Below the pieces are notes generated by a model. It was not told where the DNA came from. It made no database searches and worked only from the letters and a program-made list of their open reading frames with translations. This document shows positions 5,790 through 19,302 of a stretch of DNA of 27,854 nucleotides, piece by piece. Origin of the DNA: a virus; IMG/VR virus record IMGVR_UViG_3300032241_002426, positions 1-27,854 of that record. One strand, 5' to 3'. A program made the translations under genes and the position numbers. Position 1 is the first letter of the stretch. Each line of letters begins with the position of its first letter.

Positions 5790-5811
5790 ATACTCTCTAT
5801 ACGGAGGTATT
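5789..5811 (+). promoter_or_regulatory. Hairpin hiding the ribosome site of the HNH endonuclease gene
   Basis: AATAC (5789-5793) plus TC (5794-5795) pair with GA (5804-5805) and GTATT (5807-5811), leaving one bulged G (5806) and an 8-nt loop. The strong GGAGG ribosome site (5803-5807) falls in the loop edge and right arm and would be blocked. The left arm contains TAAATA (5787-5792), resembling the core of a T4 late promoter. A transcript starting a few bases downstream would lack the left arm and be translatable. Confidence 0.45.
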
Positions 5812-5815
5812 GACA

Positions 5816-7018
5816 ATGAATATGAATGAAATAGAATTGATATTCTATAGCAGCAAAAATACACGGTCACAACTACATTTACATAGATATCTTAAATTAA
5901 TGAAATACTATCAAAATAATGCTTGTATAAAAGTAAAAGGGTTAAATGGTGCATATGAGAGACATCATATTTTACCAAGGAAATTATACCCTGAATATAA
6001 AAATTCCAAATGGAATATAATAGTGTTACCGACAAAAGCACATTATTTGGCTCATTATTTTTTATATAAGGCGTTAAGTGACAAATCTTGTGTATATGCT
6101 TTTAATCAAATGCGTAGAATATCCAAAAAGAATGGTAAAACTTTTTGCAGATTGTATGAATCTGTTAGAAAAGAGTTTGCAAAACTAATTAGTGAAAATA
6201 ATACAGGCAAAGAAGTAAGTGAATCGGCAAGGCTCGCATTGAGTAACCATCATAAAAATACAAACATTTATAGAAATAAAAAAACCGGCGAATTAAACAG
6301 GATTACAGTAGGACAGCAGCCAGATGGATGGGAACCTTTTCAAACGGGTAGAATACGAACTGCAGATTCGAAGAATAAAATTCGTGAAGCAATGTCAAGT
6401 AGAATGTGGCAATTCAATGCAGAAACAAAAGAAGTAAAAATGGAAAAAGAGCTATTACCGGGTTTTACTTTGGGATATCCAGACTGGTATGATAATGGCC
6501 GTGGGTTAATAAAAGGATATGTTTGGATACACAATCCAGAAACAAAGGTTCATTATAGAATACCAAAACATGACCAGATACCAGATGGGTTTGTGACAGG
6601 AAGAATTTACAACAATGTAGGATTTGCTAAAATTAATCAGCCAAACTTGCTGCGATTGATTGATTTATCGACAAAATGTTTTGTTATAATTGATAAAAAA
6701 GACTTTGACCCAAAATTACATCTGAAAACAGGACAAAGTTTGGAGAAAACATTTGTGTATGAGTATAAAAATACTGTATATTTATCGTACTTGGACTTAA
6801 TAAACGCTTGTCCTGAAATTCCGGAGTTTGGAAAACGTGACGACAGTTTGAATCACCTAACAGTTCCAAAACCACATTACAATATGAAAGATGCACGAAA
6901 AGAATTTTGCGCAATACATGCAGGAAAAACTATGAACCAAATTGGACTAAAAGTTATAAAAATAGCAGACTATGCATATGATAGGAGGATAATTTATGTT
7001 AGATGCAACAGTGATTAA
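5816..7018 (+). CDS. HNH homing endonuclease, free-standing, between polymerase fragments
   Basis: This 400-aa protein has an N-terminal HNH nuclease motif: ERHHILPRKL (His50, His51), an Asn around residue 67, then KAHYLAHYFLYKAL (His76, His80). The middle and C-terminal parts carry repeats of a DNA-binding module seen in phage homing endonucleases, read as YRNKKTGELNRI...PDGWEPFQTGR and VWIHNPETKVHYRI...IPDGFVTGR. It interrupts the polymerase between motif A and motif B and presumably cuts an uninterrupted gene 43 at that site to spread. The ATG at 5816 is chosen because GGAGG (5803-5807) is 8 bases away; the in-frame TTG at 5810 is too close. Its last 23 bases overlap the start of the next polymerase fragment, whose ribosome site lies inside this gene. 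Confidence 0.85.
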   Translation: MNMNEIELIFYSSKNTRSQLHLHRYLKLMKYYQNNACIKVKGLNGAYERHHILPRKLYPEYKNSKWNIIVLPTKAHYLAHYFLYKALSDKSCVYAFNQMRRISKKNGKTFCRLYESVRKEFAKLISENNTGKEVSESARLALSNHHKNTNIYRNKKTGELNRITVGQQPDGWEPFQTGRIRTADSKNKIREAMSSRMWQFNAETKEVKMEKELLPGFTLGYPDWYDNGRGLIKGYVWIHNPETKVHYRIPKHDQIPDGFVTGRIYNNVGFAKINQPNLLRLIDLSTKCFVIIDKKDFDPKLHLKTGQSLEKTFVYEYKNTVYLSYLDLINACPEIPEFGKRDDSLNHLTVPKPHYNMKDARKEFCAIHAGKTMNQIGLKVIKIADYAYDRRIIYVRCNSD

Positions 7019-7953
7019 TCAGGCTATACAATCTGGTGATGCTGAAACACTTGCTACACTGATTAAGGAACAAAATTTAGAAATAAAAGATGGCAAAGTT
7101 GTCGCCGACCCTGAGATGGTAAAAAAATCTTTTGATTTTTGGGATCAACGCCAATTGATTAAGAAAATTCTACTAAATTCGTAAATATTGCGACGTAAAC
7201 AGGTAACTGTTTGATGAAAACCGCTCTAATTGCTGGAAACTCCTTGTTAAGGACAATCAGCAGCCAAGCATCGAAAGATGAAGGTTCAACGACTAGGTTG
7301 AAAGACCGTAGATCCAAGTGGATCGAAACGGGCGGCATCCAATTTATTTGGATGGTGATATAGTCTCCTCTGCATGGTAACATGCAGCAGCACGTAACGG
7401 TGCGGGATATGGCCTAACGAGCTTATTTGAAGATTTGGTATATGGAGCAGTTGGTAATCCCGGAAGTAGGTGGTATGATCCTCGTGTTGCACAAAGTACC
7501 ACATTAAGCGGGCGTTGTATCGTAAAGCACATGCAAAGCAAAATTAATGAAATTATTGCAGGAGATTACAACCATCTTGGCATTAGCTGTATATATGGTG
7601 ACAGTGTTACTGGAGATACATTAATCAAGACAGACTCCGGAGAAATAACTATTGAGCAACTTTACAACGAATGTTTTGAACACTGTATCTCTAACGGTAA
7701 AGAATATGGATTATGGTCGCAAGCAAAGGTGGTTGGATTTAATTCGTATGAAATGGTACCGTTAGTTAATCCAATCGAGTACGTAATGAGACACAAGACT
7801 AAAAAGAAATTATATCGTATTACTACTGAAAACGGCAAACAGGTAACAGTGACCGAAGATCACAGTCTTATGGTTGATAGGGATGGATATCTTGTTGAAG
7901 TTAAACCAACTGAAATATTAGAAGGCGACAACATCATTACATTTGTAGTATAA
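6996..7953 (+). CDS. 43B: DNA polymerase middle fragment with intein N-half (gp43B), interrupted by a group I intron
   Basis: The mature coding sequence is best read as 6996-7182 joined to 7439-7953 (233 aa). Exon 1 ends in QLIKKILLNS and then meets a stop formed by the intron start. Joining T7182 to T7439 gives a Leu codon and restores motif B as NSLYGAVGNPGSRW, as in T4-type polymerases. Exon 2 continues through STTLSGRCIVKHM to motif C, ISCIYGD. There the intein N-half begins at Ser (7603): SVTGDTLIKT is block A and GKQVTVTEDHSL is block B with the T-x-x-H motif. The N-half is 116 aa and ends at the stop at 7953. The ATG has an excellent AGGAGG (6983-6988) inside the HNH gene. Unspliced RNA would give only a 62-aa fragment. 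Confidence 0.88.
7183..7438 (+). ncRNA. Group I intron (td-like, IA2 type), no internal ORF
   Basis: The 256-nt intron lies within the motif B codons of the polymerase. Landmarks are: P1, UCGU (7179-7182) with GCGA (7190-7193), including the U-G pair at the splice site; P2, AAACAG/CTGTTT (7197-7202/7207-7212) with a GTAA loop; a P5-like TCCTT/AAGGA; and the R element GTTCAACGACTA. P7 is GACTA (7291-7295) with TAGTC (7361-7365). P9 is CTGCATG/CATGCAG (7370-7376/7381-7387), nearly the same as in the T4 td intron. A likely P10 pairs 7185-7188 with 7440-7443. The intron ends in G7438, the usual terminal G. It lacks a homing endonuclease, so it is either immobile or depends on a neighbour in trans. 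Confidence 0.93.
7603..7950 (+). other. Split intein, N-terminal half (IntN), within gp43B
   Basis: The 116-aa half-intein is inserted after YGD of polymerase motif C. The first residue is Ser rather than the commoner Cys, so splicing would begin with an N-to-O acyl shift. Block A reads SVTGDTLIKTDSGE and block B reads QVTVTEDHSLMV, with Thr and His in T-x-x-H. The last readable strand, EILEGDNIITFVV, ends at a stop, as expected for a naturally split intein. Confidence 0.88.
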
Positions 7954-7955
7954 TA

Positions 7956-7963
7956 GATAAATA
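7956..7963 (+). promoter_or_regulatory. Possible late promoter for the Vsr-like endonuclease gene
   Basis: GATAAATA matches the T4 late box TATAAATA at seven of eight positions. It ends directly before the left arm of the hairpin at 7964-7995. Transcription from such a box would begin a few bases later, inside the left arm, leaving the start codon unpaired. Confidence 0.4.
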
Positions 7964-7995
7964 GGCATATGGGGACAGGAGTATCAGCATATGCC
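7964..7995 (+). promoter_or_regulatory. Hairpin enclosing the RBS and start codon of the Vsr-like endonuclease
   Basis: GGCATATG (7964-7971) is perfectly complementary to CATATGCC (7988-7995), giving an 8-bp stem and a 16-nt loop. The AGGAG ribosome site (7977-7981) sits in the loop and the start codon (7991-7993) is in the right arm, so translation from read-through RNA should be weak. The T4 intron endonucleases I-TevI and I-TevII are controlled by the same logic, with a late promoter producing RNA without the left arm. Confidence 0.6.
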
Positions 7996-8932
7996 AAAAT
8001 GTCTTGAATGCGGATTTGAATCATCTAGACTACAATGGACTCATTTTAAGTATAACTGTACAGGAAGATTTAAAAACGGTAAAGAATACATGAATGCATA
8101 TCCATTTGCTAAAGTGGTTGATGACGAACTAGCCAAACGTACGGCGGTAACATTAGTTACATTGATTAACAAATACGGCGAGAAAGACGGAAGAATTAAG
8201 TGGGAAGCATATAGACAGAAACAAGCAAAATCTAACACCTTTGAATATAAACAAGAAAAGTATGGATGGACTGCTGATGAATTTGATCAGTATAATGTGT
8301 CGAGAGCAATTACTGTAGAAAACATGGTAAAAAAGCATGGGGTTGAAGATGGATTACGTAAATGGGAAGAATATTGCGACCGTCAAAAATTTACAAAAAG
8401 CAAAGAATATATTGTTAACACATATGGATTACAATATTGGAATGATCTGTGTCAAAAAAAGAGTGCACCACACAAAGCGGAATTAGTAGCAATTAAGTAT
8501 GACATCACTATTGATGAGGCAGTCGCTAAAATCGCTGCTAGATACCGATCATCATATTCAAGTACTCTAGAATTAGAATTTGTAAAAGAATTAGAGAAAA
8601 CTTTAGGTAAACTTGATAACACAAACCTGACGTCACCTTTTGGTAAATGGAATCATATAAAAAATTCGTATGTAGTATATGATATAAAACACAATGATTG
8701 TATAATAGAATTTAATGGAGATTATTGGCATGCAAATCCAAAAATTTACAGCGCCACTGACCAAATCAGAGGCACGGTTGCTAGCGACATTTGGGAAAAA
8801 GATAGAATTAAGCTTGATATAGCGCATGCCGCAGGATTTAGAACATTTGTGGTATGGGAATCAGATTATCTAACAAATAAAGAAATGATTATTAAGGAAA
8901 TAGTAGAATGGATGCAGACTACACCAAAGTAA
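7991..8932 (+). CDS. Vsr-like (PD-(D/E)XK) homing endonuclease within the split intein
   Basis: A 313-aa homing endonuclease lies between the two intein halves. The N-terminus is a small zinc-finger-like knot, C4-x2-C7-x10-H18-x4-C23. It is followed by two similar repeats, KYGEKDGRIKWEAYRQKQ and KHGVEDGLRKWEEYCDRQ, each leading to a YG element and likely DNA-binding. The C-terminal domain has YDIKHNDCIIEFNGDYWHAN and a downstream D-I-W-E-K-D-R-I-K segment ending AGFRTFVVWESDY. This is the Vsr/EDxHD-type nuclease core known from fractured phage genes with split inteins in ocean metagenomes and from the phage enzyme I-Bth0305I. The AGGAG site (7977-7981) and ATG lie in a hairpin. The 3' end overlaps the next polymerase fragment by 25 bases. 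Confidence 0.85.
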   Translation: MPKCLECGFESSRLQWTHFKYNCTGRFKNGKEYMNAYPFAKVVDDELAKRTAVTLVTLINKYGEKDGRIKWEAYRQKQAKSNTFEYKQEKYGWTADEFDQYNVSRAITVENMVKKHGVEDGLRKWEEYCDRQKFTKSKEYIVNTYGLQYWNDLCQKKSAPHKAELVAIKYDITIDEAVAKIAARYRSSYSSTLELEFVKELEKTLGKLDNTNLTSPFGKWNHIKNSYVVYDIKHNDCIIEFNGDYWHANPKIYSATDQIRGTVASDIWEKDRIKLDIAHAAGFRTFVVWESDYLTNKEMIIKEIVEWMQTTPK

Positions 8933-9033
8933 AATCAATTGAATGTCTCGGAGAGATAGATGAATATGTTTACGATATTTCTATAAAGAATGGTGATCCT
9001 TTCTTTTTTGGTAATGATATACTTTTACATAAC
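8908..9033 (+). other. Split intein, C-terminal half (IntC), within gp43C
   Basis: The 42-aa half-intein has block F in EYVYDISIKNGDPFFFGN and block G in DILLHN, followed by Thr at extein position +1. The penultimate His and terminal Asn needed for Asn cyclisation are present. The site (YGD/TDS) matches the known pol-c insertion point of archaeal family B polymerase inteins. Confidence 0.9.
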
Positions 9034-9891
9034 ACCGATTCCGCCTACTTTTCAGCCTACCCAGTAATGAAGGATTTACTAGAATTTAAAGATTTTGAAT
9101 GGACAAAAGAAAATGTAACTGACCTTTATGATAAAATTGGTGATATAACCAACACTAGTTTTCCAGAATTCATGCGTAAATCATTTAATTGTCCAGAAGA
9201 AAATGGCGAGATTATTCGTGCTGCTCGAGAACTTTGTGCTATTAAAGGTTTGTTTATTACCAAAAAACGTTATGCTGTCCTAATTTACGATAAAGAAGGT
9301 AAACGTAAAGACGTCAACGGCAAGAAAGGTGAGATTAAAGCTATGGGGTTAGATCTCAAACGAGCCGATACTCCAAAAATTGTGCAAGATTTTCTTAGTG
9401 ATATATTGGTAGATGTATTAACAGGCGGCACAGAAACAGACATACAAACTAAAGTGTTAGAATTTCGTAAAGAATTTCGATCTTGGCCAAGTTGGCTAAA
9501 AGGCACACCAAAACGTGCTAACAATATCACTTATTATCAAAATATAATGGAAACACAGAGTAAAAAAGCTACAATACCCGGGCATGTATTAGCTAGTATC
9601 AATTGGAATCGTTTAAAAAAGATTTATAATGATAATTATAGTGCAACTATACAAGACGGATTTAAGGTAGTTGTTTGTAAATTACGTCCAAATCCTAGTG
9701 GTTTAACATCGATTGCATATCCGGTAGATGAATTAACATTACCTCGATGGTTCAAAGAATTGCCGTTTGATGACGATGCAATGGAAACTGCGCTTATAGA
9801 TAAAAAATGTCAAAATTTATTATCGGTGTTAAAGTGGGATTTAGACAGCAACAAAGAAAATAACAGTTTTAACGATTTATTCAGTTTTTAA
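8908..9891 (+). CDS. 43C: Intein C-half plus DNA polymerase C-terminal fragment (gp43C)
   Basis: Residues 1-42 are the C-terminal half of the split intein; residue 43 onward is polymerase. The extein starts TDSAYFSAY, the second half of motif C (YGD joined to TDS), which supplies the second catalytic Asp. It then has KKRYAVLIYDKEG (the conserved KKRY motif) and GLDLKRADTPKIVQ of the palm-thumb region. It ends in FNDLFSF, resembling the T4 gp43 C-terminal peptide that binds the gp45 clamp. The extein is 285 aa; with gp43A (562) and the gp43B extein (117) the enzyme would be about 964 aa, somewhat longer than T4 gp43 (898). The start codon uses AAGGA (8894-8898) inside the endonuclease gene. 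Without protein trans-splicing motif C would stay divided and the enzyme inactive. Confidence 0.92.
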   Translation: MDADYTKVKSIECLGEIDEYVYDISIKNGDPFFFGNDILLHNTDSAYFSAYPVMKDLLEFKDFEWTKENVTDLYDKIGDITNTSFPEFMRKSFNCPEENGEIIRAARELCAIKGLFITKKRYAVLIYDKEGKRKDVNGKKGEIKAMGLDLKRADTPKIVQDFLSDILVDVLTGGTETDIQTKVLEFRKEFRSWPSWLKGTPKRANNITYYQNIMETQSKKATIPGHVLASINWNRLKKIYNDNYSATIQDGFKVVVCKLRPNPSGLTSIAYPVDELTLPRWFKELPFDDDAMETALIDKKCQNLLSVLKWDLDSNKENNSFNDLFSF

Positions 9892-11016: not shown

Positions 11017-11394
11017 ATGACAAAGAAAACATTTGTGTATACCACTTTTCAAAAAGAAGGATATCATTATTTTCCTGGCGCAGGTGCTAACCCATTATAT
11101 GCAACTGGCGATGAATATGATGTATCTCACCTTAGTACACGACACATGCATTACTTTAATTTTAAGGTTTGGGTAGAAGTAACACATGCAAATCGACAAA
11201 TCGAATTTATTCAGATGCGTCGTTGGATAGAAAATTTATATAAAACTGGCACATTAGAATGTGATCATCAAAGTTGCGAAATGTTAAGCGATGCTCTTTA
11301 TGAGAAGTTGTCTGAAAAATATCCCGGCATGGAAATCAGAATAGATATTAGTGAAGAAGGTATCAACGGTTCTTATACTGAATACAAACCTTGA
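11017..11394 (+). CDS. QueD/PTPS-like T-fold protein
   Basis: The 125-aa protein contains FQKEGYHYFPGAG, STRHMHYFNFKVWVEVTH and IEFIQMRRWIENLY. This order of a His/Glu-containing first strand, an H-x-H-containing strand and a Glu-Phe strand recalls 6-pyruvoyltetrahydropterin synthase and QueD folds. A later C-E segment (DHQSCEMLSDALYEKL) follows. It is probably a structural relative found in phages rather than a standard QueD; a better QueD candidate lies at 16854. It opens the modification cassette, so a pterin or deazaguanine role is reasonable inference. A GGTGA-type ribosome site precedes the ATG. Confidence 0.55.
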   Translation: MTKKTFVYTTFQKEGYHYFPGAGANPLYATGDEYDVSHLSTRHMHYFNFKVWVEVTHANRQIEFIQMRRWIENLYKTGTLECDHQSCEMLSDALYEKLSEKYPGMEIRIDISEEGINGSYTEYKP

Positions 11395-11411
11395 TATTGG
11401 AAAATCATATT

Positions 11412-11648
11412 ATGATAAGACATATACGAGAATTAGCCAATCAAGCCGGGTTTGATGCTTCTTCAAACTTTATTATACCTAAACATTCTGGCCATATATC
11501 AGATGAATTGTTAAAATTTGCAGAATTAATCGTCAACGAATGTATTGATATAGTGATAAGAAGCGATCAGTCGACTAAGATGGTGTTGCACGAGCCGTTT
11601 AGAACAATAGCTGACAATATACAAAATCATTTTTACGGAGAAGAATAG
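11412..11648 (+). CDS. Small conserved-type phage protein of unknown function
   Basis: The protein (78 aa from this ATG) reads MIRHIRELANQAGFDA, then KFAELIVNECIDIVIRS. This pattern, a short N-terminal helix followed by F-A-E-L-I-x-x-E-C, is common in small hypothetical phage proteins; no function is known to me. A TTG at 11391 overlapping the preceding stop is an alternative start, but the ATG at 11412 has GGA (11399-11401) at 10 bases. The stop overlaps the GTG start of the glycosyltransferase by one base, indicating coupling. Confidence 0.65.
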   Translation: MIRHIRELANQAGFDASSNFIIPKHSGHISDELLKFAELIVNECIDIVIRSDQSTKMVLHEPFRTIADNIQNHFYGEE

Positions 11649-12784
11649 TGCAAGACATTTATATAGTGCCACTTGAAAAATTAGAAACTCGGTACACAAC
11701 AGGATGGTATTACCACATACCTAAAATGATCGAAAAGGTTGCAGCAGATCGCAATATAGATATTAATATCGTTATTTTAGACGGTGATGATGTACCGCCT
11801 ACCCCGACACCAGGAGCTTTTTTAGATTTTGGCGCAACGAATATTTTTAAAAGTAGTCAATTGATGATTATTGCAGAATTATTCAGACAAGGTAAGATAA
11901 AAGCAGGAAGCAAATTTCTCTATACTGATGCATGGAATCCAACTGTAATACAACTAAAGTATATGAGCGAATTGTTGAATATTCCAGTTGAGATACATGG
12001 TATGTGGCATGCTGGTAGCTGGGATTCTCAAGATTTCCTTGGTAGATTAATCGGAAATAAGCCATGGGTCCGACACTCTGAATTGGCTATGTTAGACTCT
12101 TATGACACCAATTGGTTTGCTACAGAATTTCATATAGATATGTTTATTAGAGAGATGTTTTCTCCATTCTATGAGGACTCATTAGAATATTATAATCCAA
12201 AATTTCAACAAGTTAAAGATCAATTGTTAGAAAGCAAAAAAATTGCTAAAACAGGTTGGCCTATGGATTATTTGTTGGATGTATTGAAACCTTATCAAAA
12301 GTTAATCAAAAAACAGCAGATTTGTTTCCCACACAGACTTGCTCCAGAAAAACAATTAGAGATTTTTAAGGATTTAGCAGCTAGCATGCCTGAATATGAA
12401 TGGGTTGTATGCCAAGAGCGTGAGCTTACCAAACATGAATATCATACTATACTTGGCGAAAGTCAAATTGTATTTTCTGCTAATCTACAAGAAACATTTG
12501 GTATTTCTTGCATTGAGGGACTTATTTGTGGTGCATGGCCAATGGTTCCGGGAAGGCTTAGCTATCAAGAAATGTATGATTCTATTTTCAGATATCCAAA
12601 TGAATGGACTAAAAATTGGCAATCATATCAAAAGAACAAGTCAAAGATGATTGATTTAATCAGAAATACTATGGATAAATTTGAGTTAAACAGTAAATCG
12701 GTAGATGAAGCACTAAGTCGACAGTTTTCTGCTATGGATAATTTTATTAAAGCAACACCATTAATTGACCGTTTAGTAGGTTGA
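11648..12784 (+). CDS. GT-B glycosyltransferase (GT4-like), possible base-modification glycosyltransferase
   Basis: This is a 378-aa retaining-type GT-B candidate. The C-terminal donor-binding half has FPHRLAPEKQLEIF, then VFSANLQETFGISCIEGLIC followed by GAWPMVPGRLSYQEM; this includes the E-x7-E motif and the P-(G/L)-x-Y-x-E segment. By eye this half resembles the queuosine-tRNA mannosyltransferase QTMAN/GTDC1 (PHR near a Lys, then EFFG, LEAVYCGCYPL, and Y-P-E). The N-terminal acceptor half (GMWHAGSWDSQDFLGR, DTNWFATEF) is less familiar. It sits directly before dpdA in the 7-deazaguanine cassette, so glycosylation of a modified base in DNA is a reasonable hypothesis; glycan or protein modification is the alternative. 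The start is GTG at 11648 with GGAG (11637-11640) 7 bases upstream, overlapping the preceding stop. Confidence 0.8.
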   Translation: MQDIYIVPLEKLETRYTTGWYYHIPKMIEKVAADRNIDINIVILDGDDVPPTPTPGAFLDFGATNIFKSSQLMIIAELFRQGKIKAGSKFLYTDAWNPTVIQLKYMSELLNIPVEIHGMWHAGSWDSQDFLGRLIGNKPWVRHSELAMLDSYDTNWFATEFHIDMFIREMFSPFYEDSLEYYNPKFQQVKDQLLESKKIAKTGWPMDYLLDVLKPYQKLIKKQQICFPHRLAPEKQLEIFKDLAASMPEYEWVVCQERELTKHEYHTILGESQIVFSANLQETFGISCIEGLICGAWPMVPGRLSYQEMYDSIFRYPNEWTKNWQSYQKNKSKMIDLIRNTMDKFELNSKSVDEALSRQFSAMDNFIKATPLIDRLVG

Positions 12785-12830
12785 TTATTCGCTAGCAAGT
12801 TAATCATAATGTAATAGAAAGAAGCATACA

Positions 12831-14465
12831 ATGAATCCATTTGAAAATCAGCAAGATTTACATAAACGCGCACTTAATCTAGCAAAGACACAACAAGACT
12901 ATGCAATTTTTTTGCCAAGTATAAGTGCAATCTACGCTAAAATTGTCAGTATGCCCAAATATAAAGTACGAGATCGTTTACCAGACGGGCTTAATAATGA
13001 TAGATTAGACTTAGATTTTCTCAATAAAAACAATAGTTTATTTTATTATCCTGCTGCACTCTATAGTGCGGGTCATGCTTATTTAGATCCTAAAGAAAGT
13101 GATATATACGAGGGTATGGTGCAAAAGAGGGATCGCAGTAGAACTGTAATTCTAGGTGACAGCGGCGGATTCCAAATAGCTACCGGTGTATTGAAATGGC
13201 CGTGGACAGCAAAAAAAGGTCAAGACAATGCAGAATGGGCCCAAGACAAAGACAAGATGCGTATGCAATTGTTAAGATGGCTAGAACACACAGCAGATTA
13301 TTCAATGTCACTGGACGTGCCTACCTATGGTCTAGTAAAGTTTGGGTTTGATCCCGTAACAGGTCAAAGCATGCATCCTGGGATGAAAACCTTTGGTGAC
13401 TGTTTGCGAGAAAGTCTCGAAAATCATAACTTTTTTATAAAGCATCGTGTAGAAGGTGCTACGAAATTCTTGAATGTTTTGCAAGGTCGTAACGAGGCTG
13501 AAGGTGATATATGGTGGGATGCTGTTAAAGATCTACCGTTTGAGACTTGGGCGTTTTCAAACGTTCAAGCATCAAATTTTGCAATCAATCTACGTCGATT
13601 AATTATCATGCGAGATGGCAAATATCTTGACGGTAGAGATTGGCTGCATTATTTAGGTAATGGTAAAATAAAAGCGGGATGTGCATTAACTACACTGCAA
13701 CGCGCCATTAGAAAATATATTAATCCTGATATTACCATTAGTTTTGATGCTGCATCACCTTTTGTAATGACTGCCAAAGGTCAAATGTATCATGGCTATG
13801 AGCTCAGACATAATAGTATGCGATTTAAAGGTGGTTCGATTGTCGACGATAAATCATTAAAAAATAGTACAACATTGTTGAATGACTGGATAGCAGGTAA
13901 TGATCATAAAGGTTTTGTTATACCAACGCAAATAGGTTCAAGATGCACAGTCGGTGATATATGTGTTAGAGGATATGAAGATCTTGATTATAAAAAAGTA
14001 GCGTGGACTAAAAAAGAATTAGAAACAGATTTGTATCTTAATAGTCCTGAAGGTCGCGTGGGAGATAAATTTAAATGGAGTTCTGACTATAAAGATTATC
14101 TAGCGCATAGTAAAGACAACGGCGGATTATTTGATTTTGGTAGCAGTAAATTTGAAAAAGAATATGAAAAATATCAAGTTAAATGGCCCAGCAGTATGGA
14201 TGGATTTTCATATCTTATCGCAATGAATCATAATGTCGAATTGCACATTAGAGCCATACAAGAAGCGTGCATGTGGCAAGATCGTGATTTAGCCGAAGCT
14301 ACATCACATATAACACCAGATTTGCTAGAATTTAAAGATCTTTGTAGCGAAATATTGACCAGCCAAACTCCGATGGATATTATCAATAAACACGAAAAGC
14401 TTTTGCGTAATATCACTGGTATGGACGCTGATAATGCAGTTCCGATAGATTTTGGAGATATATGA
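12831..14465 (+). CDS. dpdA: DpdA-family 7-deazaguanine DNA transglycosylase
   Basis: DpdA relatives of tRNA-guanine transglycosylase exchange guanine in DNA for a 7-deazaguanine. Here the substrate-binding motif is GDSGGFQ (Asp110-Gln115), followed by SLDVPTYG (Asp162), NVLQGR (Gln218, Gly219) and the likely nucleophile region FDAASPF (Asp306). The length (544 aa) is much longer than Tgt, as in phage DpdA proteins, with a C-terminal extension. The position among folE, queD and queE supports a role in modifying phage DNA, probably for protection from host restriction. The ATG follows a GAAAGAAG leader with no strong ribosome site. The stop overlaps the next start (ATGA). Confidence 0.9.
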   Translation: MNPFENQQDLHKRALNLAKTQQDYAIFLPSISAIYAKIVSMPKYKVRDRLPDGLNNDRLDLDFLNKNNSLFYYPAALYSAGHAYLDPKESDIYEGMVQKRDRSRTVILGDSGGFQIATGVLKWPWTAKKGQDNAEWAQDKDKMRMQLLRWLEHTADYSMSLDVPTYGLVKFGFDPVTGQSMHPGMKTFGDCLRESLENHNFFIKHRVEGATKFLNVLQGRNEAEGDIWWDAVKDLPFETWAFSNVQASNFAINLRRLIIMRDGKYLDGRDWLHYLGNGKIKAGCALTTLQRAIRKYINPDITISFDAASPFVMTAKGQMYHGYELRHNSMRFKGGSIVDDKSLKNSTTLLNDWIAGNDHKGFVIPTQIGSRCTVGDICVRGYEDLDYKKVAWTKKELETDLYLNSPEGRVGDKFKWSSDYKDYLAHSKDNGGLFDFGSSKFEKEYEKYQVKWPSSMDGFSYLIAMNHNVELHIRAIQEACMWQDRDLAEATSHITPDLLEFKDLCSEILTSQTPMDIINKHEKLLRNITGMDADNAVPIDFGDI

Positions 14466-14692
14466 TGACAGATTACGATTTAACAATACATCAGAATCCA
14501 AGCGCAGAAGTTTGGACTAATTTTTTCATTGAAACAACTAATAACATGCCAAAAGAAGTTTTTTCTGATTTCGGTTATATGATAGGTTGGTTTTCGAATG
14601 CTATGATGGCTATGCATGATCATCTAATGTTAAACGGTCAGCCGATTAACGGTGATCATGCACAGTATCTGTTAGATAACGGAGATTTTTGA
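14462..14692 (+). CDS. Small protein of unknown function downstream of dpdA
   Basis: The 76-aa acidic protein contains a probable amphipathic helix (SDFGYMIGWFSNAMMAMHDH) and ends in an acidic NGDF. No family is recognised. GGAG at 14452-14455 lies before two possible ATGs (14462 and 14465). The gene overlaps dpdA at its start and the following gene at its end, so it belongs to the same operon and is probably translated by coupling. Confidence 0.65.
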   Translation: MMTDYDLTIHQNPSAEVWTNFFIETTNNMPKEVFSDFGYMIGWFSNAMMAMHDHLMLNGQPINGDHAQYLLDNGDF

Positions 14693-15228
14693 TGAAACGT
14701 GAATACGCAGTTGGTACCAAAGAAAACATTGATTTCTTTTGGGGGACTGAGGTTGAGAATACCCCTGCTACTGGACTTACAACATTATTTGTTGTTGGAG
14801 TACATGATATTGATGAGGTTGTTAAGCAACGAGATAAGACGAAAACACCTTGTCAGCACATTTATTTGGGAGCAAATCAAAGTTTTGACCCAGGTGATTG
14901 GCAACGTGGCGACTTAACAGCAAGCGATTCTTGGGATAGATTTATCAAACAAGTATTAAATTTAGGAGTTCTGACTACACTTGATTTCGATGTTAAACAC
15001 GTCGAATGGGTATTAGAAGGGTGTTATGCAGAAAATAATAATTTTATACCACAAATATCTGTTAAGATACCATATATTGAACAATTGCGATACAACGCAA
15101 CTGTAAAAATCGACGACATAGGTTTTAAGGTTAGTAATCCAGGTGTTTGGTGTCATAGCTTACACGATTTAATGGATAGAAAGACATTTACTGCATGGAA
15201 CGAATACACAAAGGATCTACCATTATGA
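14692..15228 (+). CDS. Conserved-type protein of unknown function in the modification cassette
   Basis: The 178-aa protein has strongly patterned segments: GTKENIDFFWGTEVENTPA, LFVVGVHDIDEVV, HIYLGANQSFDPGDW, TLDFDVKHVEWVLEGC, ISVKIPYIEQLRYNATVKID and NPGVWCHSLHDLMDR. The alternation of hydrophobic strands with conserved Asp, His and Glu suggests an enzyme-like alpha/beta fold, perhaps barrel-like with the acids at strand ends. I do not recognise a named function. It lies between dpdA and folE, so a step or accessory role in 7-deazaguanine metabolism is plausible. The ATG at 14692 (GGAGAT at 14681-14686) is preferred over the TTG at 14689. Start and stop both overlap the neighbours. Confidence 0.75.
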   Translation: MKREYAVGTKENIDFFWGTEVENTPATGLTTLFVVGVHDIDEVVKQRDKTKTPCQHIYLGANQSFDPGDWQRGDLTASDSWDRFIKQVLNLGVLTTLDFDVKHVEWVLEGCYAENNNFIPQISVKIPYIEQLRYNATVKIDDIGFKVSNPGVWCHSLHDLMDRKTFTAWNEYTKDLPL

Positions 15229-15653
15229 GTAATTCAACACTGGAATATTTTAAAGAATACCGTGAAAAACTAGCTGCAATAAATCAAATTAGAGCTGCAA
15301 TACAAGAGCACGAAAAAGCACATGCTAAATTTTCTATCGAGTTAATGGATTTGCAACATGAAATAGTATCTATGCAAAAAATTATCACGGTAATGATCGA
15401 CAAAGGGTGGGATCCAGTTGAAGCGAAATTACGTACAGAAAATAAAGAACGTCATAATTCGTTGTGGAATGATAGCACACGAGAAGAGTTAGCTCTCGAA
15501 AGTTTTTCCAATATCCTTAATAATTATTCATCTTCTAATTTTATGTCGCAGCAATTAATGTCTAATCAAACCGGTGCAATAGGAAACACCTATAATTGCT
15601 CTGCGTATTCGAGACCCGTTGGTATCAACGGAGCCTCTGGTATAACCGAATAA
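15225..15653 (+). CDS. Coiled-coil protein of unknown function
   Basis: From the ATG at 15225 (overlapping the preceding stop as ATGA) the protein is 142 aa. Residues up to about 70 are heptad-like and charged (YFKEYREKLAAINQIRAAIQ, then HEIVSMQKIITVMID), suggesting a coiled coil. The C-terminal third is low-complexity, rich in Ser, Asn and Gly. An upstream ATG at 15195 lies inside the previous gene and has no ribosome site. No function can be assigned. Confidence 0.65.
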   Translation: MSNSTLEYFKEYREKLAAINQIRAAIQEHEKAHAKFSIELMDLQHEIVSMQKIITVMIDKGWDPVEAKLRTENKERHNSLWNDSTREELALESFSNILNNYSSSNFMSQQLMSNQTGAIGNTYNCSAYSRPVGINGASGITE

Positions 15654-15661
15654 TATAGACT

Positions 15662-15687
15662 ATAATATTGCCTTTCGATATTATTTT
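15662..15687 (+). terminator. Weak AT-rich stem-loop with a short T-run
   Basis: ATAATAT (15662-15668) pairs with ATATTAT (15678-15684) across a 9-nt loop, followed by TTT (15685-15687). The stem is all A-T, so it would terminate poorly. It lies just before folE, between two parts of the operon. Confidence 0.25.
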
Positions 15688-15725
15688 GTATAAACTAATT
15701 TATATAAATTTTCAAAGGATACGAC

Positions 15726-16397
15726 ATGACATCAGTTAGTAACAAAATACGAGATCGCATTAAAGCTAACGGTGGAAAATTTTTCTGCAATGACAACATT
15801 TCGGAATACTTAGAGCCTGGTGATTTTGAATCGCTAATAACAGAAGTATCGAGTAAGATGCAAAGTGTATTAGATAGTTTGATAATTGATACAGAAAACG
15901 ATCATAATACAAGAGAAACTGCGCACCGAGTTGCAAAAATGTTTTGTACAGAAGTGTTTTCAGGGAGATATTTACCTCCGCCTAAAATTACTACTTTTCC
16001 AAATGTAACTGAATATGATCAGGTATATGTAACAGGGCCTATTTCAGTACGTAGTACCTGTGCACATCATCTTCAATCAATAAAAGGCAAGGCTTATGTT
16101 GGAGTTTTTCCGGGCAAAAATGTTATAGGACTTAGTAAATTTAATCGAATGGTAGATTGGCTAGCTAGTCGTCCTCAAATTCAAGAAGAAATGACAATAC
16201 AAATTGCAGATCTTATTGAGCAAGAAACACAAGCTGACGGTGTGGCAGTGATCGTCCAAGCAGAACACGGGTGTATGACAATGAGAGGTGTTCGCGAACA
16301 TGAAAGTGATATGACTACAAGTGTTATGCGCGGTGTATTTAGAGCACATCCACATATTAAGCAGGAGTTCTTTGACATTGTAGCAAGGATGAAGTAA
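15726..16397 (+). CDS. folE: GTP cyclohydrolase I
   Basis: The enzyme converts GTP to 7,8-dihydroneopterin triphosphate, the first step to both folate and 7-deazaguanines. Zinc ligands are in STCAHH (Cys112, His115) and EHGCMTMRGV (Cys183), as in bacterial FolE (Cys110, His113, Cys181 in E. coli). Substrate-binding segments VGVFPGKNVIGLSKFNR and the helical N-terminus (RETAHRVAKMF) are present. At 223 aa it is full length. In a phage with dpdA and queE, its job is probably to feed 7-deazaguanine synthesis. AAAGGAT precedes the ATG. Confidence 0.95.
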   Translation: MTSVSNKIRDRIKANGGKFFCNDNISEYLEPGDFESLITEVSSKMQSVLDSLIIDTENDHNTRETAHRVAKMFCTEVFSGRYLPPPKITTFPNVTEYDQVYVTGPISVRSTCAHHLQSIKGKAYVGVFPGKNVIGLSKFNRMVDWLASRPQIQEEMTIQIADLIEQETQADGVAVIVQAEHGCMTMRGVREHESDMTTSVMRGVFRAHPHIKQEFFDIVARMK

Positions 16398-16479
16398 TTA
16401 TTCTTGCAAGGTGGACTTTAGCGCTCATCCCACTCTAAAATTCTGCGTGCTATCAACGTCGTTCAACAGGAGACAAGAG

Positions 16480-16641
16480 ATGGCGAATAAAACAAAGACT
16501 GAAGATTACATTGGGTCCATTAACAGCGACGGTAAAGGAAGCAAGGTAGAATCCTTACCTAACGGCGTTGATTTGGTTAGTGATGATATTGAATACTTCA
16601 AGCGCAAGCTTGAAAAAGCGCAGAAGCAACTTGATCAGTGA
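16480..16641 (+). CDS. Small charged protein of unknown function
   Basis: The 53-aa protein (MANKTKTEDYIGSINSDGKG to KLEKAQKQLDQ) has a polar N-terminus and a C-terminal helix with coiled-coil character. The ATG at 16480 is chosen because AGGAGA lies just upstream; an in-frame ATG at 16411 has no ribosome site and would add an unrelated 23 residues. No family recognised. Confidence 0.6.
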   Translation: MANKTKTEDYIGSINSDGKGSKVESLPNGVDLVSDDIEYFKRKLEKAQKQLDQ

Positions 16642-16683
16642 TCTACAAACTTGAAACGCCTCTGAGGGGCAATGTTCCGGTGA

Positions 16684-16857
16684 ATGGAGATAACAGGGTT
16701 AACATATAGCCAAAAATATAAAAAAGATCAAGCAAAACTAAAAACGGCTAGCGATCAAAGATTTAAGGTTTTTGTGGTAAGATCCAACTTTACAGATGAA
16801 CAGAAAACAAATATAATAACCGAATTTATCAAATATACAAAGGAACAACTGAAATGA
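16684..16857 (+). CDS. Very short gene (57 aa), unknown function
   Basis: An ATG at 16684 opens a 57-residue frame (MEITGLTYSQKYKKDQAKLK, then RFKVFVVRSNFTDEQKTNII, ending TKEQLK) with helical, lysine-rich composition. Its stop overlaps the start of queD in the ATGA pattern used elsewhere in this operon. The frame fills an otherwise empty 212-base gap. The ribosome site is weak (GAGGGG at 16664-16669, 14 bases away), so confidence is moderate. Confidence 0.5.
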   Translation: MEITGLTYSQKYKKDQAKLKTASDQRFKVFVVRSNFTDEQKTNIITEFIKYTKEQLK

Positions 16858-17369
16858 CAACATATCAACCAATAGCGTATAAATTTACATCAACAAAGGA
16901 GTATGTACAAGAATTCCCTTGTGCTTACAAACAATGGAAAGCTGACACCTGGTGTAATCTTAACCATGGTTATTCATTCTCTATTAAATTTTATTTTGGT
17001 GCAAATGAATTAGATAAAAGAGGCTGGGTTTGTGATTACGGAGGACTTAAGGAATTAAAACAAATTCTTAAAGATCAGTTTGATCACCGAACATTGATTG
17101 CCCAAGATGATCCAGATTTGGAAAAATATAAACAACTTGAAAAAGATGGTGTTCTTAAACTTACAATTTTACCAGGCATGGGCTGCGAAATGATTGCTGA
17201 TATGCTCTATAAGTATGTTAACAGTGTTTACATTCCCAATTACTTAGGAAAGGGAGAATCCAAAAGGATTTGGTGCTATCGTGTAGAAGTTCGTGAGACT
17301 GTATCAAACATGGCTTATAGAGAAGGTCATAGAGAATGGAATGAGGACCTTTTTGAAGGTCTAGAATAG
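16854..17369 (+). CDS. queD: QueD-family 6-carboxytetrahydropterin synthase
   Basis: The 171-aa protein has the PTPS/QueD layout: CNLNHGYSFSIKFYFGA (catalytic-type Cys34, His38), WVCDYGGLKELKQIL (the usual M-D-F-x-D-L-K segment), FDHRTL (Asp77, His78) and a C-terminal VEVRET glutamate. It would turn dihydroneopterin triphosphate into 6-carboxytetrahydropterin, between FolE and QueE. Two of the three usual zinc histidines appear changed: HGH is HGY here, and the first His position reads Tyr in FPCAYKQW. I associate this HGY form with phages. The start overlaps the 57-aa gene, and a terminator follows the stop. Confidence 0.82.
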   Translation: MTTYQPIAYKFTSTKEYVQEFPCAYKQWKADTWCNLNHGYSFSIKFYFGANELDKRGWVCDYGGLKELKQILKDQFDHRTLIAQDDPDLEKYKQLEKDGVLKLTILPGMGCEMIADMLYKYVNSVYIPNYLGKGESKRIWCYRVEVRETVSNMAYREGHREWNEDLFEGLE

Positions 17370-17413
17370 ACGTATGACTACTTTTCTAAAATATTGTTTT
17401 AGTAACCTACCTC

Positions 17414-17438
17414 GTGTATTAAAAATACACAGTTTTTT
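17414..17438 (+). terminator. Intrinsic terminator after queD
   Basis: GTGTATT (17414-17420) pairs with AATACAC (17424-17430) over a 3-nt loop and is followed by AG and a run of T (17433-17438). It ends the transcript 45 bases after the queD stop and argues that the next gene starts downstream, at 17461. Confidence 0.7.
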
Positions 17439-17460
17439 TGGTTTGAAAGGTATAAAAACA

Positions 17461-18117
17461 ATGACTTCTGGTACAATAATATCTGATTATTCGACAGAAA
17501 TTGTCAAAGATGATACAACAATTGATAACGGAATAACGATATCTGAAGTTGACACAGATCATAGCAATTGTACAATTCAACAAATTGCTATGCCAAATAA
17601 TGTCAATAATTTGTACGGTGTTCAAATTTCAAAAAATACCACTGGTATTAATTCTTGTTCTAATTTAACAAATACAAATTTAGGAGCATATGCTAACCAA
17701 AATATAGCAATAGGACACGGTGTTAATAATATATATAATACCGGTACTTTAGTAGCAGGGATTGGATTAGGACAGATTAATAATCCTCATCAGCCCAATT
17801 CTGCCATCACTATATCAGCAGAAGGTGGTGTAATGTTAAACATACATCACGACGGTAGAGTAGAATGGACCGGACCGTTAAGCAAAAATGCAACGGCATT
17901 TGTAAATGTTGTAGGTGCATATATTGATAAAGATGCTGCCGGAAAATTAGCGTTAGCTAAAAGTTACAGAAGAGCTATTGAACGCTGTTTGCAACAAATT
18001 AAACAAATGGATAAAGATGAGTTTATTGCTATGCTTGAAAAAGAAGTTGAAATAAGAAAAAGCAAAGCTGTTTGGCAAGAACTTTCTCAAGTAGACGACG
18101 AAGGTGTAGATGAATAA
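17461..18117 (+). CDS. Unknown protein with Asn/Ile-rich repeat region and helical C-terminus
   Basis: The protein (218 aa from 17461) has an N-terminal half rich in Asn, Thr, Ile and Gly (for example NNLYGVQISKNTTGINSC and QNIAIGHGVNNIYNTG), suggestive of a beta-rich or fibre-like segment. It has a charged helical C-terminus (AKSYRRAIERCLQQIKQMDK, EKEVEIRKSKAVWQEL). The middle element SAEGGVMLNIHHDGRVEW resembles a beta hairpin. It may be a virion-associated or structural protein. The ATG at 17461 with AAAGG at 17446-17450 is preferred; the in-frame ATG at 17374 would place the terminator hairpin inside the gene. Confidence 0.6.
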   Translation: MTSGTIISDYSTEIVKDDTTIDNGITISEVDTDHSNCTIQQIAMPNNVNNLYGVQISKNTTGINSCSNLTNTNLGAYANQNIAIGHGVNNIYNTGTLVAGIGLGQINNPHQPNSAITISAEGGVMLNIHHDGRVEWTGPLSKNATAFVNVVGAYIDKDAAGKLALAKSYRRAIERCLQQIKQMDKDEFIAMLEKEVEIRKSKAVWQELSQVDDEGVDE

Positions 18118-18134
18118 TCTTAGCAGAGAATATC

Positions 18135-18374
18135 ATGACAACTGACATTGATCAGCCATTTTTGTTAATGTGGGATCTTCTTGATTTAGATGAAATGCAA
18201 TCTCGTATAGATTGGTTACGAGAAAATCTGACAGCTGGCGACGATTGGGGTTTTTGTCGAGAACAAAAGATTTGTGTACTGAAAAATAGATCAGCAACGG
18301 TCCTGTATCGCCTGAGATGGGTTGAGCCTGGTAAGCAGGTAGATGTAAGTGAAAAGTCTTTTTCGCTTGATTGA
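18135..18374 (+). CDS. Small protein of unknown function upstream of queE
   Basis: The 79-aa acidic protein (MWDLLDLDEMQSRIDWLREN, then WGFCREQKICVLKNRSATVL) has one helix followed by a probable beta pair. No family recognised. It follows the previous stop by 17 bases. Its stop is 49 bases before the queE start, and a short perfect palindrome (TATCTTTTAAAGATA, 18376-18390) lies between them. Confidence 0.6.
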   Translation: MTTDIDQPFLLMWDLLDLDEMQSRIDWLRENLTAGDDWGFCREQKICVLKNRSATVLYRLRWVEPGKQVDVSEKSFSLD

Positions 18375-18423
18375 CTATCTTTTAAAGATACAACACAATT
18401 TAAAAATAATTAGGATATTTTTT

Positions 18424-19302
18424 ATGTTTGGACATAATTCTATAGTTGGGCAATCTTATTTCAAAGATGCTGAAGATAAATTGATGGTAACCTCGATTTT
18501 TTATACCTTACAAGGCGAAGGTCCTTATCGTGGCGAGCCAGCGATATTCGTGAGATTTGCCAAGTGTCAGTTGTCGTGTTCATTTTGTGACACTTTTTTT
18601 GATGATGGTGATTGGTTGACTACACCGCAGATTAATCAACAAATACACACAATAATCGATCAACATTTTGATAGTAACATACCTCTATGGGCAAATGAAT
18701 TATGGGGTATGGAGGAATATCCTCTTAAAAAGAGAAATATGGTTTTAGTAGTAACAGGCGGTGAGCCGATGTTACAAAAAAATATTGGACCGTTTTTAGA
18801 ATATATGAGCAAACGTTTTGACAAGACACAGATAGAAAGCAACGGGCTCTTGGTTCAAGATATACCGTCATCTACTACATTAGTTGTAAGTCCAAAATGT
18901 AGCGAGAAAAATGGTCAACCAACACAATATTTAGCACCTAATCCAAAGATGTTATCTCGCGCAGATTGTTTGAAATTTGTAATGTGCGCTGATCTTAATT
19001 CTCCATATAGTTCTGTACCAGATTGGGCGCATGAATGGCGAGCTAAAACTGGCAAACCAATATTTGTAAGTCCAATGAATATATACAATGAAGAACCACA
19101 AAAGAGCAAACAACTACGAGCAGAAAAGAATCAAATAACCATTGAAGAACGCAGTACCGTAGATGAGGTAATTTCTTGGTGGACTCCTGGGTTGTTGAAT
19201 ATGTCAGAAAATCAAAAAAATCATGAATATGTAGCTCGTTATTGTATTGATCATGGTTTTATTTTCAATATGCAACTACACTTGTTTTCATCGATGGCTT
19301 AA
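18424..19302 (+). CDS. queE: 7-carboxy-7-deazaguanine synthase QueE (radical SAM)
   Basis: QueE contracts 6-carboxytetrahydropterin to 7-carboxy-7-deazaguanine. The radical-SAM cluster motif is in AKCQLSCSFCDT (Cys48, Cys52, Cys55, a C-x3-C-x2-C), with the preceding QGEGPYRGEPAIFVRF typical of QueE and the SAM-binding TGGEPMLQ downstream. The enzyme keeps IESNGLL and SPKCSEKNG, and ends in MQLHLFSSM, as QueE proteins often do. At 292 aa it is somewhat longer than E. coli QueE. The ATG at 18424 has AGGA 8 bases upstream; a frame extending upstream to 18349 overlaps the previous gene without a ribosome site. It completes the chain FolE-QueD-QueE. Confidence 0.94.
   Translation: MFGHNSIVGQSYFKDAEDKLMVTSIFYTLQGEGPYRGEPAIFVRFAKCQLSCSFCDTFFDDGDWLTTPQINQQIHTIIDQHFDSNIPLWANELWGMEEYPLKKRNMVLVVTGGEPMLQKNIGPFLEYMSKRFDKTQIESNGLLVQDIPSSTTLVVSPKCSEKNGQPTQYLAPNPKMLSRADCLKFVMCADLNSPYSSVPDWAHEWRAKTGKPIFVSPMNIYNEEPQKSKQLRAEKNQITIEERSTVDEVISWWTPGLLNMSENQKNHEYVARYCIDHGFIFNMQLHLFSSMA

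Follow-up and report, generated by a model that had tools for sequence, protein, structure and literature searches.

A glycosyltransferase gene accompanies a predicted 7-deazaguanine DNA-modification cassette without QueC in jumbo phages

A glycosyltransferase gene is linked to dpdA

The DNA analyzed here, referred to as the window, is the entire viral record IMGVR_UViG_3300032241_002426, a fragment record of 27,854 bases in IMG/VR. Its plus strand carries folE, a queD-like gene and queE, whose products are predicted to form 7-carboxy-7-deazaguanine (CDG), together with a gene for a very divergent DpdA-like transglycosylase, and the window contains no queC. We found that a predicted glycosyltransferase (GT) gene lies directly upstream of dpdA, that the two genes are linked in related loci, and that QueC scoring above the Pfam cut-off is absent from the close relatives tested. 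Very probably, these genes constitute a deazaguanine DNA-modification cassette of a jumbo-phage lineage, and the GT is part of it. That CDG is placed in the phage DNA and subsequently glycosylated is the favored, though tentative, reading of the full chemistry.

The GT gene (11648–12784), the fifth component of the cassette, had been left unnamed in the first-pass annotation. It encodes a protein of 378 amino acids, for which AlphaFold2 produced a model with a predicted local distance difference test (pLDDT) score of 83.8. A Foldseek search matched the model to BshA with an E-value of 8e-8, and structural comparison with GT4 enzymes in VIA-align resulted in Z scores of 19–23 over ~300 residues. 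The residues E282 and E290 correspond to an EX7E-like motif, and the underlying pattern, QE(T/N)xGIxx(x)E, is present in 80/80 GT relatives. The model, the fold comparison and the linkage to the locus identify the protein as a predicted GT4-type enzyme with GT-B fold.

Using tblastn on 27 dpdA loci, the basis of all homologue counts per locus given below, the GT was found in 20/27. Profile searches of long GT loci (at least 17 kb) revealed DpdA in 39/39, QueE in 37, FolE in 35 and QueC in none, a linkage that is partly ascertained because the GT loci had been gathered by similarity to GTs beside dpdA. When short loci were included, DpdA was detected in 67 and QueE in 56 of all 80 GT loci. Conversely, long DpdA loci (at least 17 kb) contained the GT in 45/45 cases, FolE in 43, QueE in 31 and QueC in 0/45. 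After clustering at 90%, the GT occurred with DpdA in 36/36 and DpdA with the GT in 31/32. A collection of 50,697 phage records, which is less biased than the locus set, contained the GT in 19 records. QueE was present in all six of these 19 phages that were tested, namely PA5oct, Phosso, ACP17, X1, PhiXhv-12 and Ep032; QueC above the cut-off was absent from the first four and present in PhiXhv-12 and Ep032. The QueC-bearing phages CAjan, R5C, R26L, Pan1, Motura and Vibrio phage 2.275 were not among the 19.

The connection of the GT with deazaguanine genes survives genome rearrangement, as seen in Phosso, X1 and ACP17. In PA5oct, dpdA and the GT gene are neighbors with queE close by, and folE and two PTPS genes lie ~50 kb away. 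The dpdA locus of Phosso lacks the GT because the GT gene adjoins folE, together with queE, ~170 kb from dpdA. The GT of X1 and ACP17 abuts a different type of DpdA-like transglycosylase; the transglycosylases of these two phages share 38% identity over 279 residues and show no meaningful BLAST similarity to the DpdA of the window.

QueC is missing from the relatives tested

The first-pass annotation had correctly noted that the window holds no QueC. Since the window is a fragment, this absence has little weight when taken alone, and QueC was therefore searched for in relatives, which carry the weight of the argument. The test was the Pfam QueC cut-off applied to 27 whole records with dpdA; those of PA5oct and Phosso represent complete genomes according to their descriptions, and the IMG/VR records among the 27 may be fragments. 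QueC above the cut-off was detected in 0/27, and the profile PF06508 would also reveal a Gat-QueC fusion. No QueC match was obtained in PA5oct or Phosso at an E-value of 0.01. As positive controls, 3/3 Nanhaivirus phages and CAjan yielded the expected QueC. Support is good for a DNA-modification cassette that has no QueC, an absence also seen at the level of the relatives' whole genomes. Of the window proteins that were compared with Pfam, none matched QueF, ArcS or Gat-QueC, the searches for QueF and ArcS being confined to the window. The cassette does not, by these results, encode the QueC that defines the preQ0 type; for the phage of the window itself, we infer this absence outside the fragment.

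Neither RHph_I1_18 nor ACP17 gave a QueC match, and X1 gave just a sub-threshold match. RHph_I1_18 possesses folE, queD and queE and lacks both QueC and the GT, which means that QueC loss is not always accompanied by a GT.

Identity of the cassette proteins

The presence of folE, a queD-like gene, queE and dpdA in the window, as annotated initially, was borne out, for the first three by Pfam and PHROGs; for dpdA, motif, profile and context support a putative assignment. The dpdA gene (12831–14465) encodes 544 amino acids, and the protein had no Pfam or PHROG match at an E-value of 0.01 and no NCBIfam match at 0.1. PADLOC and PHROG scans of 15 family members produced no convincing match, and a sequence search of the PDB using the DpdA and GT alignments produced none. 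Relatives were found in 11 Pseudomonas phage records (the PA5oct group), Phosso, Vibrio phage 2.275 and 25 IMG/VR loci; the window protein is 32% identical to that of PA5oct and 30% to that of Phosso. A wider scan returned hundreds of additional candidates, and 79 loci were retained.

The sequence contains GDSGGFQ (residues 109–115), D162, LQG (217–219) and D306 within FDAASP, which suggests a very divergent member of the TGT superfamily. The residues D110, S111, G112, G113, Q115, D162, G219 and D306 are invariant in all 45 rows of the DpdA alignment. Comparison of the DpdA profile with 80 bacterial TGTs by hhalign resulted in a score of 39.9 (P 3.6e-4), with the alignment resting solely on the DSGGFQ motif; the controls scored 15.9–22.1 in 20 column shuffles and 16.1–18.3 with four other families. 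Against the E. coli TGT alone (P 0.0015, probability 16.7%), LQG aligned to IIQG and FDAASP to FDCVMP, the site of the TGT nucleophile. The corresponding comparisons with the transglycosylases of CAjan, R5C and X1 were non-significant (E 0.54, 0.17 and 0.032, respectively). The best functional evidence for the predicted DpdA identity is the cassette context in Vibrio phage 2.275, in which the family member (6.5e-68) adjoins QueF, a transporter of PF02592 (the family to which the preQ0 transporter YhhQ belongs), QueC, FolE and QueE.

The folE gene (15726–16397) encodes GTP cyclohydrolase I (PF01227, 7.7e-50), and FolE was present in 26/27 whole records bearing dpdA. The queD-like gene (16854–17369) encodes a PTPS protein (PF01242, 8e-17) that reached 37.9 bits with TIGR03367 versus a cut-off of 89.25. 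Its zinc motif is CxxxHGY, compared to CxxxHGH in the phage QueDs of CAjan and PA5oct (EST35_0254). The CxxxHGY version occurs in 36/38 members of this phage QueD-like subfamily, and PA5oct has an HGY-type protein plus a canonical-looking QueD. PTPS/QueD-like genes were found in 15/27 dpdA records. A sublineage of the G010 type had no QueD-like match, yet retained folE, queE and dpdA, which suggests that one step or more is supplied by the host.

The queE gene (18349–19302) is predicted to encode the radical SAM enzyme CDG synthase with the motif CQLSCSFC (PF04055, 4.3e-4; phrog_2076, 1.8e-48), and its start is probably downstream of the annotated position 18349. QueE was present in 25/27 dpdA records, and both misses were fragments of 16 and 4.7 kb. 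The predicted gene set for CDG formation is thus complete in the window, with an altered zinc motif in the QueD-like protein. The cysteine pattern Cx3Cx2C was matched by 41/113 QueE-like ORFs (open reading frames); among the 72 non-matching ORFs, the three displayed have CNFNC, with the next cysteine a long way downstream. Separately, we observed an intein-like insert of ~300 residues inside the CxxxCxxC iron-sulfur motif of QueE in one relative (L018, 12207–14021), and in-frame TAA or TAG codons inside the QueE matches of G017, G031, G033, G044, PhiXhv-12 and Ep032.

Relation to known systems

In the established route, FolE supplies the pterin precursor and CDG is formed with QueD and QueE (Hutinet 2019, PMC6884629). 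Cassettes of the preQ0/dADG type, such as that of CAjan (FolE, QueD, QueE, QueC and DpdA), share with the window FolE, a QueD-like protein, QueE and an enzyme of the TGT superfamily (in the window, a predicted one) in one neighborhood. In contrast to CAjan, the window cassette lacks QueC, its DpdA is unmatched by Pfam, PHROG and NCBIfam, and a GT is added. Phages with and without QueC have been listed before, and for Mycobacterium phage Bipper, which likewise encodes all but QueC, the main text of that study raised CDG as a possible base (Hutinet 2019, PMC6884629). Bipper is a single mycobacteriophage in that text, whereas here the lineage is a broad one of jumbo phages and a GT is linked to the cassette; the main text mentions neither 'glycosyl' nor PA5oct. 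The deazaguanine system of PA5oct was noted by Iyer 2021 (PMC7824862), with the missing QueC and the GT unmentioned in the part of the text examined. PA5oct encodes the same DpdA family, GT and QueE as the window, plus FolE and QueD. A link of a glycosyltransferase to DpdA or deazaguanine was not found in the literature searched, a limited collection of partly available texts. Vibrio phage 2.275 has the DpdA family, FolE and QueE in common with the window and differs by QueC, QueF, the PF02592 transporter and the lack of a GT match.

In phage T4, cytosine is modified to hydroxymethylcytosine, to which a GT-B enzyme adds glucose after replication. The order proposed here, base modification and then sugar, would resemble that of T4; in T4 the sugar is carried by a modified cytosine, whereas here a guanine analogue would be introduced by transglycosylation and served by a GT4-like enzyme. 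To our knowledge, the known 7-deazaguanine bases in DNA carry small groups. A 2023 paper in Nucleic Acids Research reportedly described dCDG and dDG, the deoxynucleosides of CDG and 7-deazaguanine, in phages. A decarboxylase, DpdL, has reportedly been described along with dDG.

A possible route to a glycosylated deazaguanine

According to our tentative model, FolE would provide the pterin precursor, from which the HGY-type QueD-like protein, or a host QueD, and QueE would form CDG; these steps are assigned by homology. The divergent DpdA may then exchange guanine for CDG in finished phage DNA, as distant homology and context suggest. From its predicted fold and its linkage, the GT4-type enzyme could transfer a sugar from a nucleotide-sugar onto the modified base, most simply onto the 7-carboxylate, and the bulky sugar-bearing base would protect the DNA by blocking host nucleases. 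The 7-carboxylate is the target of QueC as well as the obvious sugar acceptor, so that QueC loss would be explained if the model holds. The first-pass annotation, in the first of its two readings, had let the pathway end at CDG, which is plausible but incomplete: given the constant GT partner, CDG may be an intermediate. We are slightly more reserved about the wider picture, in which a widespread jumbo-phage system makes glycosyl-7-deazaguanine and clusters of the PhiXhv type do likewise on another deazaguanine. If true, a sugar on deazaguanine would bring together base replacement and glycosylation, which are distinct strategies of phages, and would involve a new guanine-modifying enzyme pair. 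The PA5oct group, with PAO1 as host, and Phosso are cultured phages with laboratory hosts, which makes the model directly testable.

In addition to the partial ascertainment of the linkage, several observations weigh against a glycosylated CDG. The AlphaFold2 model of DpdA is poor (pLDDT 54.7), and Foldseek found no significant match to it in the PDB, an archaeosine TGT ranking fifth with an E-value of 4.2; in BFVD, two relatives were recovered at E-values of 3.5e-12 and 1.2e-8, and Vibrio phage nt-1 contributed one weak match (E 0.43), as did Motura with its TGT (E 0.65). In PhiXhv-12, a distant GT (25.6%) and a Gat-QueC fusion are close together, separated by a PIG-L deacetylase, and in Ep032 both signals, GT and QueC, recur about as far apart. 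The association of the GT with CDG is hence not a strict one. Divergent QueC-fold proteins gave weak matches in 2/27 dpdA records and in eight of 20 further IMG/VR records, three of the latter marginally above the cut-off. Finally, the annotated QueCs of Motura and Vibrio phage 2.275 partly fail the canonical-motif test by which such proteins were discounted.

The PhiXhv-12 cluster itself (L057, 1277–9701) comprises GNAT, Gat-QueC, PIG-L deacetylase, glycosyltransferase and GFO/IDH oxidoreductase genes, a composition suggestive of an aminosugar-decorated deazaguanine.

The QueC-fold proteins raise the question of whether a non-canonical enzyme encoded elsewhere in the phage yields preQ0 or an amide, which we regard as quite improbable. 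ORFs with PP-loop and zinc motif do exist in G001, G004 and several wider relatives. They are in the minority, those of G001 and G004 have radical SAM-like genes as neighbors and are not part of the cassette, and PA5oct and Phosso gave no match at an E-value of 0.01. The motifs YxQxHxxE, VPxRN and YPDC, given as canonical for QueC in the text available of PMC13329287, are absent from the QueC-fold ORFs of G001, G004 and five of the eight weak-match records (the ORFs inspected exclude G026, G030 and G043), which places the inspected proteins, by sequence, in a non-canonical type. All five patterns of our motif test match in the QueCs of E. coli and CAjan; R5C fails the zinc pattern as written and the PhiXhv Gat-QueC fails two. 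Since the motif test is imperfect, the QueC calls rest on hidden Markov model scores. Non-canonical QueC-fold proteins with PP-loop and zinc motif were seen beside radical SAM-like genes in L033 (7650–10681, two proteins) and L034 (9036–9695).

The main rival to glycosylated CDG is that a host QueC turns the extra CDG made by the phage into preQ0, which DpdA inserts, and that the GT acts elsewhere or on another base. Host complementation seems to occur in the G010-type sublineage and was proposed for jumbo phages by Iyer 2021 (PMC7824862), and host 7-deazaguanine intermediates were proposed, in the main text of Hutinet 2019 (PMC6884629), to serve phages without biosynthesis genes. However, random loss of steps would give a scatter, whereas QueE is kept in 25/27 records and QueC above the cut-off in none, and a nitrile offers the linked GT no obvious acceptor. 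We therefore consider this explanation unlikely, though ahead of the others. The lack of QueC would fit with plain dCDG as the end product, as suggested for Bipper (Hutinet 2019, PMC6884629), and with a GT serving another purpose such as surface sugars; the GT–dpdA linkage in 39/39 and 45/45 long loci and in rearranged genomes makes such a division of labor improbable. Decarboxylation of CDG to 7-deazaguanine, for which the HGY-type protein with its altered metal motif might be responsible, followed by insertion as dDG, is very improbable. The frequency of CxxxHGY (36/38) and its coexistence with a canonical-looking QueD in PA5oct had made the QueD-like protein a candidate decarboxylase, but R5C, which has QueC, contains the HGY type as its sole PTPS match, so that this type probably acts as QueD. 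Least probable of all is a glycosylated pterin instead of a DNA base as the product. The structural matches of the GT include a tetrahydrobiopterin glucosyltransferase (5zes, Z 19.4), but this is one match among many of similar or higher score, and pterin glycosides are not known to involve queE or a TGT-like protein.

Neighboring genes and other features of the window

The cassette had been proposed to start at position 11017, but the gene at 11017–11394 encodes a conserved protein of phrog_17812 (9.6e-23) that is outside the known pathway; homologues occur in 23/27 dpdA loci. A second conserved protein is encoded between dpdA and folE (14689–15228). It has homologues in 17/27 loci and no match in Pfam or PHROG.

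Inside the family B DNA polymerase gene of the window, a group I intron (RF00028, 102.4 bits) is located at 7173–7387, between the sequences encoding KKILLNS and GAVGNPGSRW. The polymerase is split again at a YGDTDS-type site (7435–9891), with an N-intein-like end at 7435–7953 and a C-intein-like start at 8908 (PF14890). A separate ORF between the intein-like halves (7991–8932) gives the arrangement a resemblance to a fractured split-intein gene. Moreover, a 402-residue ORF without Pfam match is inserted in the polymerase region (5810–7018) and contains, by eye, an HNH-like stretch.

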